The notes beneath the pieces were generated by a model. The model was not told where the DNA came from. It made no database searches and saw only the letters and a program-made list of their open reading frames with translations. From contig JAHDSB010000083.1 in assembly GCA_018433015.1 (NCBI GenBank), positions 1 through 50,538 of the forward strand: a stretch of 50,538 nucleotides of DNA, written 5' to 3'. The stretch is from Clostridia bacterium (GTDB taxonomy: Bacteria > Bacillota > Peptococcia > DRI-13 > SV3-B141). Shown piece after piece: positions 41,202-50,312 of the stretch; positions within the stretch are counted from its first letter, which is position 1, and each line of letters begins with the position of its first letter. Position numbers and translations under genes: made by a program.

Positions 41202-41774
41202 ATGTCCATTACCGTTATGGTGTATAGTTCTAAACCTGAAAATCGCAAAAATATTGTTGGTCTTCTACAGAAAATGGGGCTAAGCGTTATAACTGAAGCA
41301 TCTGATACTCAACAGGCTCTACGGCTTGCCCGTTCCTCACGGCCAAATCTTATCATTTATGATATAGATTCCTTTGAGTATAGAAGTTTAGAGACTGCTA
41401 CTATCCTGGCTAATGAGAAAATCGCGCCCCTTCTTTTAATAACAGATCCCCACCAACAAAGAGTTATAGCGGCTATGAGAGAAGATTATATAATGTCTTA
41501 CGTAGTAAGACCCCTTACTAGATGGACTCTACAATCGGCTATTCATACAGTACTATCTGCTATCAATAAGCTGAAAGAAAAAGAAAGTGAAATAACTAAG
41601 TTAAAGAATAATTTAGAAACCCGCAAGCTGGTGGAAAAAGCAAAACATCTGGTTATGAAAGAACTTAGCCTCTCAGAAGATGAAGCTTACCGCCGCATGC
41701 AAAGATTAAGCATGAATAAAGGTGTTCCCCTTAAACAAGTAGCTGAAGCTATTATATTAAAATATGAATTATAA
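41202..41774 (+). CDS. ANTAR-domain response regulator (RNA antiterminator)
   Basis: Protein of 190 residues. A receiver-like domain (1-115) has Asp in LIIYDIDS at the phosphorylation position, then a coiled-coil linker. The ANTAR domain (about 130-190) reads KLVEKAKHLVMKELSLSEDE, AYRRMQRLSMNKGVPLKQVA, EAIIL. ANTAR proteins bind paired hairpins with AxxGxx loops and prevent formation of overlapping terminators; in clostridia they commonly control nitrogen genes. Such hairpins lie immediately downstream, before amt. AAGGTGATG precedes the ATG. It may be cotranscribed with metH. The kinase partner is not adjacent. Confidence 0.9.
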   Translation: MSITVMVYSSKPENRKNIVGLLQKMGLSVITEASDTQQALRLARSSRPNLIIYDIDSFEYRSLETATILANEKIAPLLLITDPHQQRVIAAMREDYIMSYVVRPLTRWTLQSAIHTVLSAINKLKEKESEITKLKNNLETRKLVEKAKHLVMKELSLSEDEAYRRMQRLSMNKGVPLKQVAEAIILKYEL

Positions 41775-41885
41775 ATTAATATGCTCCTCACTGGCGAAGA
41801 GCGAATAATACAAAATAATTCTCAATATAGCCTTGCAACCAACGAGGCCTTTTGTTATTATATAAAAAACTTAATAAACCATCGA

Positions 41886-41901
41886 TGGGCAAAGACGTCC
41901 A
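41886..41901 (+). promoter_or_regulatory. candidate ANTAR-binding hairpin, first terminator
   Basis: TGGGC-AAAGAC-GTCCA forms a 5-bp stem (one G-T) with hexaloop AAAGAC, which has A at position 1 and G at position 4 as ANTAR sites require. Its 3' strand GTCCA is also the 5' arm of the terminator at 41897-41940, so the two structures exclude each other. Confidence 0.6.
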
Positions 41902-41948
41902 GAAACAGAAAGATTTTTTCTGCTTCTGGACTTTTTATTTTTTATTCC
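41897..41948 (+). terminator. intrinsic terminator 1 in the amt leader
   Basis: GTCCAGAA..CAGAAA pairs with TTTCTG..TTCTGGAC and is followed by TTTTTATTTTTTATT. A strong Rho-independent terminator more than 150 nt before amt. Confidence 0.85.
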
Positions 41949-41993
41949 GGTTCAGCTAACCATCAGTAAGGAAAAATCACTGATGGAAGTTTC

Positions 41994-42024
41994 ACTTTAA
42001 AGCAAAGTAGAACAAAGGCGTTCT
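41994..42024 (+). promoter_or_regulatory. candidate ANTAR dual hairpin (P1-P2) before amt
   Basis: P1 is ACTTT-AAAGC-AAAGT (41994-42008). P2 is AGAAC-AAAGGC-GTTCT (42009-42024), a perfect 5-bp stem with a hexaloop having A1 and G4. The two are directly adjacent. The P2 loop and 3' strand form the 5' arm of terminator 2. This is the geometry of an ANTAR antitermination site; the 5-nt P1 loop deviates from the six-nt consensus. Confidence 0.65.
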
Positions 42025-42070
42025 CATTTAATAGACACTTTTCTGTCTATTAATAGGGAATGCCTTTTTT
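42014..42070 (+). terminator. intrinsic terminator 2 in the amt leader
   Basis: AAAGGCGTTC pairs with GAATGCCTTT; inside it TTAATAGACA pairs with TGTCTATTAA. TTTTTT follows immediately. It ends about 37 nt before the amt ATG, so amt can be expressed only if it is bypassed. Confidence 0.88.
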
Positions 42071-42106
42071 AAATATAAATTATCATATTTGAGGGGGTTA
42101 TTCGTA

Positions 42107-43371
42107 ATGACAGAGGAACTAATTACAAGTCTTGATACCATCTGGGTTCTTTTATCCGCTATTCTCGTCTTCATCATGCACGCTGGTTTTGCTATGGTAG
42201 AAACAGGTTTTACACAACAAAAAAATGCCGTAAATATCATCATGAAAAATTTTCTCACAATTGCTTTAGGTGTTATCCTTTTTTATTTTGTAGGATTTGC
42301 TTTTATGTTCGGTCAAGATAAAGCTGGTCTCATAGGAATGTCCGGATTCGCATTATTAAATATTAAGGAAGGTTCTTTTTCTATTCCTACCAGCGGTTTC
42401 TGGTTCTTTCAAGCGGTTTTTGCTGCCACCTGTGCTACTATCGTCTCTGGAGCATTGGCAGAACGCACAAAGTTTTCTGCCTATTGCGTTTTTACTATTA
42501 TCATTACCTCCTTTACTTACCCCGTGGTTGGGCACTGGATCTGGGGTGGCGGTTGGTTAGCTGAAAAAGGATTTATAGATTTAGCTGGATCCACTGTAGT
42601 TCACAGTGTAGGCGGTTGGTCTGCTCTAATAGGTGCATATTTAGTAGGCCCTCGAATCAATAAATTTGGGCCGGATAAAAAGATAAATGCTATCCCCGGT
42701 CACAATATTCCCTTAGGTGCTTTAGGAGTTTTTCTCCTCTGGTTCGGTTGGTTCGGTTTTAATTCAGGAAGTACCCTCAGCGGTTTAACACCAGATATAG
42801 CTCATATTGCCACAACCACTCTGTTAGCTGGAGCAGCTTCTACGATTTCTTCTTTACTGTACACTTGGCTAGTTTACAGGAAACCTGATGCCAGTTTAAC
42901 CTTGAATGGTGCGTTAGCAGGATTAGTAGCAATTACAGCCGGAGCTCAAGTTGTATCCCCTCTCAGTTCCTTAATAATAGGAGCTTTGGCCGGTGTATTG
43001 CTTGTTATTTCTGTAACCTTTATAGAAAAGTCCTACACATTGATGACCCAGTAGGGGCTATTTCTGTCCACGGTGTGTGCGGGAGTTTTGGAACCCTCTG
43101 TATTGGTGTCTTTGCAAGAGAAGGAGGTCTCTTATACGGAGGCAGGTTCTCACTTCTCTATATCCAAGGACTGGGTGTCTTAAGTGTAATGCTCTGGTCT
43201 CTAGCTTTAGCTTATCTAGGTTTTTATTTAATTAAAATAACAATAGGGCTTCGTGTTTCTCGCAAAGAGGAGATAGAAGGCCTGGATTTAGGAGAACATG
43301 GACTTAAAGCTTATGATTATAATTACATTAAGTCAAACAATATCGTTCTTTCGTCCCTTACCAAAAAATGA
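42107..43371 (+). pseudogene. amt: ammonium transporter Amt, frameshifted
   Basis: Ammonium channel of about 420 residues, full length if read through one frameshift. The first part (from ATG 42107, with GAGGGGG upstream) contains MHAGFAMVETGF, SGALAERTKFSAY and the pore histidine in VVHSVGGWSALIGAY, then stops at 43052-43054. The natural continuation (VLHIDDPVGAISVHG, second pore His, VCGSFGTL) is in the -1 frame. The break maps to the AAAA run at 43026-43029, where one A appears missing. This could be a real inactivating deletion, a homopolymer error in the assembly, or less likely recoding. It precedes glnB and glnA, as in many Amt-PII units. Confidence 0.85.
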
Positions 43372-43387
43372 TAACGGAGGTTTTACA

Positions 43388-43765
43388 ATGAAAAAAGTAG
43401 AAAGTATAATTCGTCCTGATAAACTTAACGAACTTAATTCTGCTTTGAGCCGCTTCGGAATTCAAGGAATGACCGTAACACAAGTTATGGGCTGCGGTTT
43501 ACAAAAAGGAAGGCATGAAGTCTATCGAGGAACCGGTTATGACATTAATTTATTACCCAAAATAAAGATAGAAATAGTTGTCCCTGCTGACTCTGTCTCC
43601 GACCTTATTACTTTAATTAAAGATACAGCGTACACAGGCGATATTGGCGATGGCAAACTTTATTCTCCCTGTAGAAAATGCTATTCGTATACGAACGGGA
43701 GAAGAAGGGAAAAATGCTATATAAAAACTTGTTCTGTAAATGAAATATTGCTAAAATATACCTGA
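43388..43765 (+). CDS. glnB: PII-family nitrogen regulator, apparent C-terminal frameshift
   Basis: Starts MKKVESIIRPDKLNELNSAL and contains the T-loop (YRGTGYDINLLPKIKIEIVV) and B-loop (TGDIGDGK) of PII, so ATP/2-oxoglutarate binding is largely present. After GDGKL the frame changes. The expected ending ILPVENAIRIRTG is found in another frame, with its own stop at 43722-43724, whereas the open frame runs on with unrelated residues to 43765. About two T seem missing near 43659-43661. The C-loop arginines that bind ATP are therefore lost unless this is an assembly error. GGAGG lies before the ATG. Its usual partner is the adjacent Amt. Confidence 0.8.
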   Translation: MKKVESIIRPDKLNELNSALSRFGIQGMTVTQVMGCGLQKGRHEVYRGTGYDINLLPKIKIEIVVPADSVSDLITLIKDTAYTGDIGDGKLYSPCRKCYSYTNGRRREKCYIKTCSVNEILLKYT

Positions 43766-43767
43766 TG

Positions 43768-43789
43768 TGCAATAATATTATTTATTGCA
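43768..43789 (+). promoter_or_regulatory. hairpin in the glnB-glnA gap
   Basis: TGCAATAA pairs perfectly with TTATTGCA around a 6-nt loop, between the glnB stop and the glnA ribosome site. No T-run follows. It may act in mRNA processing or stability; the loop does not fit the AxxGxx ANTAR rule. Confidence 0.45.
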
Positions 43790-43808
43790 AAGAACGAGGA
43801 GGTATAAT

Positions 43809-45146
43809 ATGCCAAAATTAAGCAAAGATGACGTTTTACGACTTGTTGCAGAAAATAATGTCCGCTTTATACGTCTACAATTCACCGACATCATTGGCAT
43901 CCCTAAAAATGTTTCAATTACTGTTAAACAACTAGAAAAAGCTCTTAATAACGAGTTAATGTTCGATGGATCTTCCATCGAAGGATTTGTGAGAATTGAA
44001 GAATCTGATATGTATTTACATCCGGATCCTAATACTTTTCTTATTTATCCCTGGACAACTTCCGAAGGTAGTTCGGTGGCACGTTTGATTTGTGACATCT
44101 ATAATCCAGATGGGACACCTTTTGCCGGTGATCCCCGCTATGTTCTGCGGCGTGCATTAAAAGAAGCTGCAGATCTGGGTTATACCTTTAATGTAGGGCC
44201 AGAAGCAGAATTTTTCTTATTTCATACGGCCCCCGATGGATCTCCTACCCTCAATACCCATGACAGAGCCGGTTACTTTGATCTCTCTCCCGTAGATTTA
44301 GGCGAAGATGCCCGCCGAGATATGGTTCTGGCTTTAGAGAAAATGGGGTTTGAAATCGAGGCTTCCCACCACGAAGTAGCTCCCGGTCAACATGAAATCG
44401 ACTTTAAATATTCTGATGCCTTAGATATAGCAGATAAAATAATCACCTTCAAAATGGTGGTACGGACTATTGCCCAACGTCATGGGCTTCATGCTACTTT
44501 CATGGCTAAGCCCATCTACGGCGAAGCCGGTAACGGTATGCATATGAACCAATCTTTATTTAATAAAGATAATCAAAATGCATTTTACGATCCTTCTGCT
44601 CCGGATGGTTTAAGCAAGATAGTCTATCAATATATGGCCGGTATTATGAAACATGCTAGAGCCATTACTGCTATTACTAACCCCACTGTTAACTCTTACA
44701 AACGGTTAGTTCCTGGGTATGAAGCACCTATATACATTGCTTGGTCTGCTCAAAACCGCAGCCCACTCATTCGTATCCCAGCTAAAAAAGGGTTATCTAC
44801 ACGCATTGAATTAAGAAATCCGGATCCAACCTGTAACCCTTATTTAGCTTTAGCTGTTGCCCTGATGTCAGGTTTAGACGGAATAAAGAATAAGTTAACA
44901 GTACCTCCACCTTGTGACCTCAACATCTATGAAATGTCTCCCGCAGACCGGAAAAAAGCAGGTATAGATAACCTTCCCGAAACTCTACAAGAAGCATTAA
45001 AAGAGCTGGAAAAAGATGAGGTTATTGTTAAAGCTCTAGGCCCTCATGTACTAGAACATTACCTAGAAGCTAAAAATAGTGATTGGTACGACTATCGGAC
45101 TAAAGTACATCAATGGGAATTAGACCACTATTTGACAGTTTATTAA
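43809..45146 (+). CDS. glnA: glutamine synthetase type I (GSI-alpha)
   Basis: Enzyme of 445 residues making glutamine from glutamate, ammonia and ATP. It has [21 protein letters not shown], including the Arg and Glu used in feedback inhibition of GSI-alpha, then [11 protein letters not shown] (metal ligands), [11 protein letters not shown] and [17 protein letters not shown]. The short length and lack of the adenylylation-loop insertion are typical of Firmicutes. The ATG at 43809 has GAGGAGG 6 nt upstream; an ATG 24 nt earlier is not supported. It is the last gene of the amt-glnB-glnA unit and converges with the glutamate synthase operon. Confidence 0.96.
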
Positions 45147-48630: not shown

Positions 48631-48799
48631 CTTAAATCCCCCTCCATAATTCTTGCTTTTATATTTATTATTCTACTTTTATTATATTTATATATTTATA
48701 TATATTTATTAGATAAAGACAGCTACAAAAAAAGTTATGTATATTATAACAGCTTCCATCCAAAGATAAAAGGTTTTTTTGTCTTAATAATGTATACAT
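48631..48799 (-). promoter_or_regulatory. upstream region of the glutamate synthase operon
   Basis: This AT-rich stretch contains TATAAT on the minus strand (48743-48748) without a good -35 partner, so any promoter there would need activation. A perfect 10-bp palindrome, ATGTATACAT (48790-48799), lies upstream. I see no other structure. Confidence 0.35.
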
Positions 48800-48848
48800 A
48801 AAAAAATATTGTATACTGTTCTATAATAGTGAACCCAGTATACAATAT
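48800..48848 (-). terminator. hairpin with T-run after the DHA2 exporter
   Basis: On the minus strand ATATTGTATACTG pairs with CAGTATACAATAT (13 bp, 17-nt loop) and is followed by TTTTTTTAT. It fits a terminator for the exporter gene. The two GTATAC half-sites could also be protein-binding sites. Confidence 0.62.
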
Positions 48849-48887
48849 AACTTGAGCAATATATTATATATAAAATTAATGTGGTTG

Positions 48888-50312
48888 TCAGTTATTGCCA
48901 CTGTTTTTTAATCTTGGTTCGCGAGCTAGCGACACTATCATCCCTGCGATAGCGAATACAGTAGCAGTTAAATAGGCATCATGCTGAGCTAAAAGAAAAC
49001 CTTGTTGATAAGAATAACCACCACCAGCAAATCCCTCTGTATAATAAGCTAGCCTGCTGCTAAAAACAGCACCGCTAATTGCTATTCCCATAACTTGTCC
49101 CACACAACGCATGGTTGCTATCATTCCCGAACCTATCCCCACCATATTTTTAGGCACATTACTAATAATAGCATTATTATTAGGAGATAAGAAAAATCCT
49201 GTTCCAAATCCTACTAAAATTAGACCTAGAATTACCGGCCAAAATCCACTAATTCTATATAAATTGCTTAGGAGAAAAACTCCCCCGGCAATTACACCCA
49301 TACCTAGAGATGAGAGGATTCTTGAACTTACCCTATCAGAGAGGCTTCCACTAATAGGAGAAGTGACCATCATTACCAAGGGAAAAACTGTCATAACCAG
49401 ACCTGCCTGACGAGATGGCATCTGAAGAACATTGATTAAATAGAAGGGCATTAAGAAAATAACCGCATATTGAGTTAAATAATTTAAAACGGCTGTAAGA
49501 TTAGCTGCTGAAAAAAGTCTGTTATGAAAAAGTTTTAGAGAAAGCATAGGAAACTTTACATGCTGTTCCCAATAAATAAATAGTGCAAAAGATATAAAGG
49601 CAGCACTAAATAAACTTATTATAATAGGTGACATCCATCCCCAAGCTTGCCCGTGACTCATAGCCAATAAAAAGGTCACTAATGTTATAAAAACAAAGAC
49701 AGCACCACCTAAGTCAAACTGTTGCTTGCTTCCACGTTTTTTAGGCAAGATGTTCCACGCCCATATTATCCCAATAACACCTATGGGGAGATTGATATAA
49801 AAAATTGACTGCCAGCCAAAAGAACCTACTAATAATCCACCAATTGTAGGTCCTGTTGCTAAGCCTAAAGAGACAAACATAGAATTGATCCCTATTGCTT
49901 TACCTCTTTCAGCAACACCAAAAGTATCAGCAATAATGGCCTGGACAACAGAGGTAATCATTGCTGCACCTAAGGCTTGTATAGCCCGAGCAGCAATCAA
50001 ATAGTTAATATTTCCTGCTTGACTACAAAGAAAGGAAGCTATTGTAAACAGGGTAAAGCCCCCCAAGTATATAGGTCTGTGACCATACATATCCCCGATC
50101 CTTCCAAATGTTAAAAGCAAACTGCTCATCAACAATAGATACACCATTACTACCCACTCCACACTACTTAAAGGAGCTTGAAAATGAGCAGTGATATTAG
50201 GTAAGGCAATATTAACAATACTGGCATCGAGAGTAGACATAAAAACTCCCAAAGAAGTTGTTGAAAGAATTAACCATTTCCTTTTGTTTACTATTGCAGT
50301 TGAATCCATCAT
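48888..50312 (-). CDS. MFS transporter, DHA2 family (EmrB/QacA-type drug exporter)
   Basis: Drug:H+ antiporter of about 474 residues with 14 predicted membrane helices. Family motifs are FMSTLDASIVNIALPNI (motif D1 of 14-helix exporters), FGRIGDMYGHRPIYLGGF (motif A) and GPTIGGLLVGSFGWQSIFYINLPIG (motif C). The start is set at ATG 50312, with AAAGGGTG 6 nt upstream; an ATG at 50309 and a GTG at 50321 are alternatives. It appears monocistronic, with no regulator beside it, although a mobile element begins immediately upstream. Substrate unknown. Confidence 0.92.
   Translation of the reverse strand: MMDSTAIVNKRKWLILSTTSLGVFMSTLDASIVNIALPNITAHFQAPLSSVEWVVMVYLLLMSSLLLTFGRIGDMYGHRPIYLGGFTLFTIASFLCSQAGNINYLIAARAIQALGAAMITSVVQAIIADTFGVAERGKAIGINSMFVSLGLATGPTIGGLLVGSFGWQSIFYINLPIGVIGIIWAWNILPKKRGSKQQFDLGGAVFVFITLVTFLLAMSHGQAWGWMSPIIISLFSAAFISFALFIYWEQHVKFPMLSLKLFHNRLFSAANLTAVLNYLTQYAVIFLMPFYLINVLQMPSRQAGLVMTVFPLVMMVTSPISGSLSDRVSSRILSSLGMGVIAGGVFLLSNLYRISGFWPVILGLILVGFGTGFFLSPNNNAIISNVPKNMVGIGSGMIATMRCVGQVMGIAISGAVFSSRLAYYTEGFAGGGYSYQQGFLLAQHDAYLTATVFAIAGMIVSLAREPRLKNSGNN

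Follow-up and report, generated by a model that had tools for sequence, protein, structure and literature searches.

Two putative single-hairpin ANTAR-type attenuators in series in the leader of amt-glnB-glnA in a Clostridia bacterium

The ammonium genes amt, glnB and glnA of this bacterium follow a gene for an ANTAR regulator, which raises the question of whether the leader between them (41775-42106) is an antitermination switch and, if so, of what kind. The initial annotation of the window, by which is meant the whole stretch of 50,538 nucleotides analyzed here, proposed that the ANTAR protein controls these genes through two serial switches, each with paired hairpins, and with phosphorylation of the protein. 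Antitermination in two units has held up, with the layout seen in a relative (G003); the paired hairpins and the phosphorylation have not. ANTAR-type antitermination before amt-glnB-glnA is well supported by sequence comparison. With a probability of roughly 70%, the leader would contain two serial single-hairpin attenuators under a NitR-like ANTAR protein.

The first of the three genes, amt (42107-43371, plus strand; PF00909), encodes an ammonium transporter and is the sole amt in the genome. It is followed on the same strand by glnB, encoding a P-II protein (43388-43765; PF00543), and glnA, encoding a type I glutamine synthetase (43785-45146; PF00120 and PF03951). There are apparent frameshifts toward the 3′ ends of amt (near 43020-43045) and glnB (near 43650), which may represent assembly indels or sequence error, or gene decay.

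The two intrinsic terminators that had been noted before amt are borne out by folding. Terminator 1 (41897-41948, plus strand) has a stem at 41897-41931 and the T-rich tail TTTTTATT, with a folding energy of −18.6 kcal/mol; terminator 2 (42014-42070, plus strand) has a stem at 42014-42067, a T tail and an energy of −27.5 kcal/mol. Compared with shuffles, the terminators with their flanks gave z values of −3.9 and −7.8, respectively. The claim that hairpins with AxxGxx loops can form in place of the terminators likewise stands. In switch 1 the hairpin is TGGGC-AAAGAC-GTCCA (41886-41901, plus strand; 5 bp, −5.0 kcal/mol), and in switch 2 it is AGAAC-AAAGGC-GTTCT (42009-42024, plus strand; 5 bp, −3.2 kcal/mol). 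Both have the properties sought in the terminator-overlapping hairpin, P2: at least 3 bp, a hexaloop with A at position 1 and G at position 4, here closed by a C-G pair, and construction from the 5′ arm of an intrinsic terminator. GTCCA is common to the first hairpin and terminator 1, and terminator 2 includes the loop and 3′ arm of the second hairpin. When both strands were searched for A1/G4 hexaloop hairpins overlapping terminators of at least 11 pairs, the real 50-kb window yielded two, both in the amt leader, against 0.125 per shuffled window (40 shuffles).

A pattern scan found a candidate promoter, TTGCAA-17-TATTAT, at 41833-41861 (plus strand), a match that is at chance level by itself. 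It would put the start near 41867, with about 19 nt between there and the first hairpin. Promoter-like sites picked out by eye in relatives are similarly placed relative to the hairpin; all of these starts are guessed from sequence resemblance to promoters. The ACTGGC hairpin that had been noted at 41783-41802 does exist (−5.2 kcal/mol, with a C.A mismatch). It lies about 85 nt before switch 1 and upstream of the candidate promoter, and is rejected as a distant P1, the upstream partner of P2, on account of its distance and place. Two other structures were seen in the leader: an inverted repeat, GCCTTG-CAACCAA-CGAGGC, at 41830-41848, followed by a T-rich stretch and overlapping the candidate −35, where the ANTAR transcript might end or an operator might lie; and a strong hairpin at 41960-41986, between the two switches, in which CCATCAGT and ACTGATGG are separated by 11 nt and for which no counterpart was seen in G003. 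No Rfam family, riboswitches included, reached its gathering threshold in the window, and the weak matches in the leader (E < 10) were far under threshold and unrelated.

The ANTAR gene (41202-41774, plus strand) encodes 190 amino acids with a degenerate receiver and an ANTAR domain. The ANTAR domain is clear (PF03861, 70.8 bits; curated cut-off, 27.3), and the receiver scored 31.1 bits (PF00072). In an alignment with 6wsh, the EutV residues Arg142, Glu160 and Tyr164, which contact the loop G4, correspond to R141, E159 and Y163, and the plug residue Met172, which is essential in EutV, to M171 (Walshe et al., 2022; PMC8934654). Thus, as far as sequence can tell, the protein is plausibly able to read G4. 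Of the features of a phosphorylated EutV-type regulator, only Asp54 is found: the acidic pair is lost, with YSS where VDD is expected, as it is in the order-level orthologues; the conserved Lys is replaced by Arg103; and the neighboring genes that were read include no kinase. The protein is therefore unlikely to be a phosphorylated response regulator of the normal kind, and the proposed control by phosphorylation gives way to an AmiR-like control by a partner protein, to which the altered receiver points. The genome encodes one further ANTAR protein. On contig 33 (L002:43-2400; L071), a sensor-kinase-like gene and a EutV-like regulator are accompanied by a textbook dual hairpin and terminator before an eutA-like gene, a same-genome example of the classical site. 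This second protein could act on the switches of the amt leader instead.

The published motif consists of two hairpins (Ramesh et al., 2012; PMC3369931). In the model drawn from the crystal structure, P1 is the recruitment hairpin and P2 the antitermination hairpin, and lengthening the linker between them abolishes antitermination (Walshe et al., 2022; PMC8934654). A P1 was sought in the 45 nt before each hairpin as a hexaloop with a purine at position 1 and G4, at least 4 bp, ending no more than 14 nt from P2. It was found in 8/8 dual sites of the order (five ANTAR-linked leaders and three further amt switches), against a shuffled rate of approximately 1–3%, and in neither switch of the window; the A1/G4 hexaloop hairpin expected 2–25 nt upstream of P2 in the dual motif is thus not recognizable at either. 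Before switch 2 there are only 3-bp alternatives, with the loops AAAGCA (1 nt away) and GATGGA (18 nt away). The 30 nt before switch 1 contain one G and no hairpin, and if the candidate promoter is right, there would be no room for a P1. A hexaloop ATCGAT at about 41881-41886 was rejected as P1; it has only 2 bp and competes with the switch 1 hairpin. The pairing of hairpins as first described is thus not supported, for lack of a recognizable P1 at either switch, and the element is filed as an ANTAR-like variant rather than a classical member. The absence of P1, a defining part of the published motif, counts against the reading preferred here, as does the weak binding of P2 alone by NasR, at approximately 12 µM (PMC7496416).

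The covariance model search that had been suggested was carried out with a model built from 14 dual sites, all at other loci. Eight of its 10 pairs have changes on both sides, a covariation that is supportive rather than independent evidence, since seeds and patterns were partly chosen for pairing and A1/G4. The two amt-leader sites ranked first and second in the 101 kb searched. The 42009 site scored 23.4 bits (E 1e-4), with the model taking the hairpin as P1 and an unrelated stem as the second half; the 41885 site scored 14.1 bits (E 0.04), matching the P2 half alone. An arrangement in which the 42009 hairpin serves as P1 and the apical hairpin of the terminator as P2 was rejected, the apical loop being CTTTTC. 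Over the whole genome the model alone is not specific enough, as 41885 ranks with chance matches and 42009 is not reported; the genome-wide statistics rest on pattern and covariance model searches together. The contig scan gave no close relative, with no locus exceeding 54% identity, and the best orthologues of the ANTAR protein are 45–56% identical and from the same order, so that any covariation comes from sites outside the window.

In other members of the order, hairpins and terminators occupy the corresponding position, after the orthologous ANTAR gene and before amt or glnA. Classical dual sites are present in these leaders in G001, G003, G004, G008 and G010. They consist of P1 (e.g., CGATAC-AATGAC-GTATCG; in general GATAC-xxxGxx-GTATC), a linker of 7–9 nt and a P2 (e.g., GGAC-AAAGAT-GTCC) that overlaps the terminator. 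Dual sites before amt were also found in G002 and G009. In G003, where the gene order ANTAR-amt-glnB-glnA is that of the window, there are likewise two serial switches, the second of which, GAGAAC-GAAGGC-GTTCTC, is without P1 and is the counterpart of switch 2. Switch 1 has its counterpart in TGGGC-AATGGC/AATGAC-GTCCA (L005/L007). A second amt in G010 is preceded by a P1-less switch and then a dual switch in one leader. Two switches in one leader had been considered unusual, a view contradicted by the tandem switches in G003 and G010 and by the multi-site units already on record (Ramesh et al., 2012; PMC3369931). Elsewhere in these genomes, a dual-hairpin ANTAR-like site with a terminator was seen in the nifH leaders of G008 and G001 (L174, L175), and a conserved GAGGAC-AATGGC-GCCCTC, with an A.C stem mismatch and overlapping a terminator, in the asnB leaders of G001, G008, G004 and G003 (L090, L112, L116:553, L134:334). 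The asnB leaders are possibly a further target of the same regulon.

The P1-less form is not confined to amt leaders. The pattern GRRCAADGRYGYYC had eight matches in the genome, against nine in the control. Three of these lie over terminators: both switches of the window and a site in the leader of glnN, a type III glutamine synthetase (GSIII) gene named from its sequence rather than by profile search. The other five (L083-L086 and L089) have no terminators. The glnN leader has GAGAGC-AAAGGC-GTTCTC and a terminator, the counterpart of switch 2; it has no P1, and the 30 nt upstream of its hairpin are devoid of G. Stem extension outside the search pattern was greater at terminator-linked matches than at unlinked ones (p 2e-4), indicating conservation of the hairpin and not of the terminator alone. 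The near-invariant 17-mer RGNGCAAAGGCGTTCYC is present before glnN in each of eight genomes with an ANTAR orthologue (with its terminator in 7/7 relatives from the order), in 0/17 other genomes of the order and in one further genome of a phylum sample of 299; the 8-versus-17 co-occurrence follows phylogeny, so that common ancestry is a confounder. In five of the eight genomes there is just one ANTAR gene. None of 10 copies of the element had a P1. Extra copies were observed in G001 and G008 (L125/L155 and L133 loci); the one in G001 is followed by a long leader and then a membrane-protein gene, and the one in G008 is a second, unassigned copy.

It is tentatively proposed, at somewhat under even odds, that these elements form a class of single-hairpin, P1-independent ANTAR antiterminators, fixed before glnN in the ANTAR-bearing families of the order and arranged serially before amt, with one ANTAR protein per genome serving dual and single sites. 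All eight glnN leaders (L077, L093, L094, L109, L113, L127, L130 and L140) also contain a GTATAC hexamer (GTATAT in L140), often as TTGTATAC, at −75 to −88 from the hairpin loop. The same hexamer occurs three times in the glt leader of the window (minus strand, 48792-48843), and no hexaloop hairpin with terminator was found there on reading through 48640-48890. It may serve as a DNA operator for a second nitrogen regulator in the glnN and glt leaders.

These observations are best read as a NitR-like regulon under an AmiR-style ANTAR protein with a pseudo-receiver, acting at both dual- and single-hairpin antiterminators. We infer the binding of this protein to the leader hairpins, the nature of its signal and the effect of the series. 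By default, each segment of the nascent RNA would fold into its intrinsic terminator, and transcription would end at two successive points. Once active, the ANTAR protein would hold the short C(A/G)xxGxxG hexaloop hairpin built from the terminator's 5′ arm; the held hairpin would exclude the terminator, and polymerase would read through. Two attenuators in series would be expected to multiply repression, lower leakage and give a sharper, steeper response. Given the degenerate receiver, the protein probably takes its signal from a partner protein and not from phosphate. The neighboring candidates are P-II and glutamine synthetase, which are encoded in the same operon and have counterparts, a P-II protein and glutamine synthetase, that control TnrA in Bacillus (PMC6316151).

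The simplest alternative is that the two terminators are unregulated and merely end the ANTAR transcript, the alternative hairpins being accidental. Both do lie downstream of the ANTAR gene, and the hairpins are weaker than the terminators. This is nevertheless very improbable, in view of the shuffled-window rate given above, the recurrence of hairpin/terminator pairs at the same place across the order, and like elements before glnN and amt at sites away from the ANTAR gene. A different objection is that the switches are classical dual ones with odd P1s: the AAAGC hairpin (41994-42008) or a bulged AAAGCA for switch 2, and for switch 1 a hairpin that is weak or far away. The AAAGC hairpin adjoins switch 2 and was first annotated as a 5-nt P1, and such variation has been accepted in actinobacterial surveys (PMC8164766). 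However, its energy is only −0.2 kcal/mol (z −0.39), it has no linker where the dual sites of the order have 7–10 nt, it has no counterpart in switch 2 of G003 or in any glnN leader, and Met172 of EutV has been proposed to exclude smaller loops (PMC8934654). With the poverty of G upstream of switch 1, this makes the odd-P1 explanation improbable.

It is also unlikely, on present evidence, that the attenuators answer to another factor, whether a different RNA-binding protein or a small molecule (glutamine, for example), through a hairpin that only resembles the ANTAR hexaloop. The absence of P1 would suit such a factor, ANTAR binding itself is deduced, and the one-hairpin class is more rigid in sequence than the dual ANTAR sites. 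Against this, the loop and closing C-G pair are the same as in dual sites, one-hairpin and dual units stand together in one G010 leader, the one-hairpin class occurs within the order only alongside an ANTAR orthologue, and no riboswitch reached its threshold in the Rfam search.

In the literature searched, with most subscription journals outside its scope, no report of natural one-hairpin ANTAR antiterminators was found, and the single-hairpin form is counted as new since published models require two hairpins. If the reading is right, the conserved P2-only sites would be natural P1 deletions on which the need for recruitment is directly testable, as is whether a higher affinity, the abundance of the protein or closeness to the promoter can take the place of P1. 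Such sites would escape surveys demanding both hairpins. In an order that has been little studied, the regulon would join amt, glnB, glnA, glnN, nifH and perhaps asnB.

It is already on record that ammonium genes can be preceded by ANTAR switches, several of them in one unit. Ramesh et al. (2012; PMC3369931) described sites before amt, P-II and glutamine synthetase genes; in Desulfotomaculum acetoxidans, six transcription units carry at least 13 sites. The window shares with these nitrogen RNAs the A1/G4 hexaloop over a terminator, the genes and the multiplicity of sites; it differs in that the published motif has two linked hairpins, whereas here only the terminator-overlapping one is recognizable. 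The nearest functional precedent is NitR of Clostridium saccharobutylicum, which is likewise an ANTAR protein of a glutamine synthetase gene cluster and is described as an inducer of GS/GOGAT genes when nitrogen is limiting (Stutz et al., 2007, as cited in PMC6316151). As summarized in PMC8934654, AmiR of Pseudomonas aeruginosa is a pseudo-receiver ANTAR protein controlled by AmiC, a likeness suggesting that a partner protein, not phosphate, exerts the control; no AmiC-like gene was noticed beside the ANTAR gene among the genes read. With EutV and the eut leaders of Enterococcus faecalis (PMC8934654), the system shares the G4-contact residues and a hairpin that would exclude the terminator, but EutV has a phosphorylatable receiver and a kinase and requires a P1 at a set distance, whereas the protein of the window has a degenerate receiver and P1-less sites.
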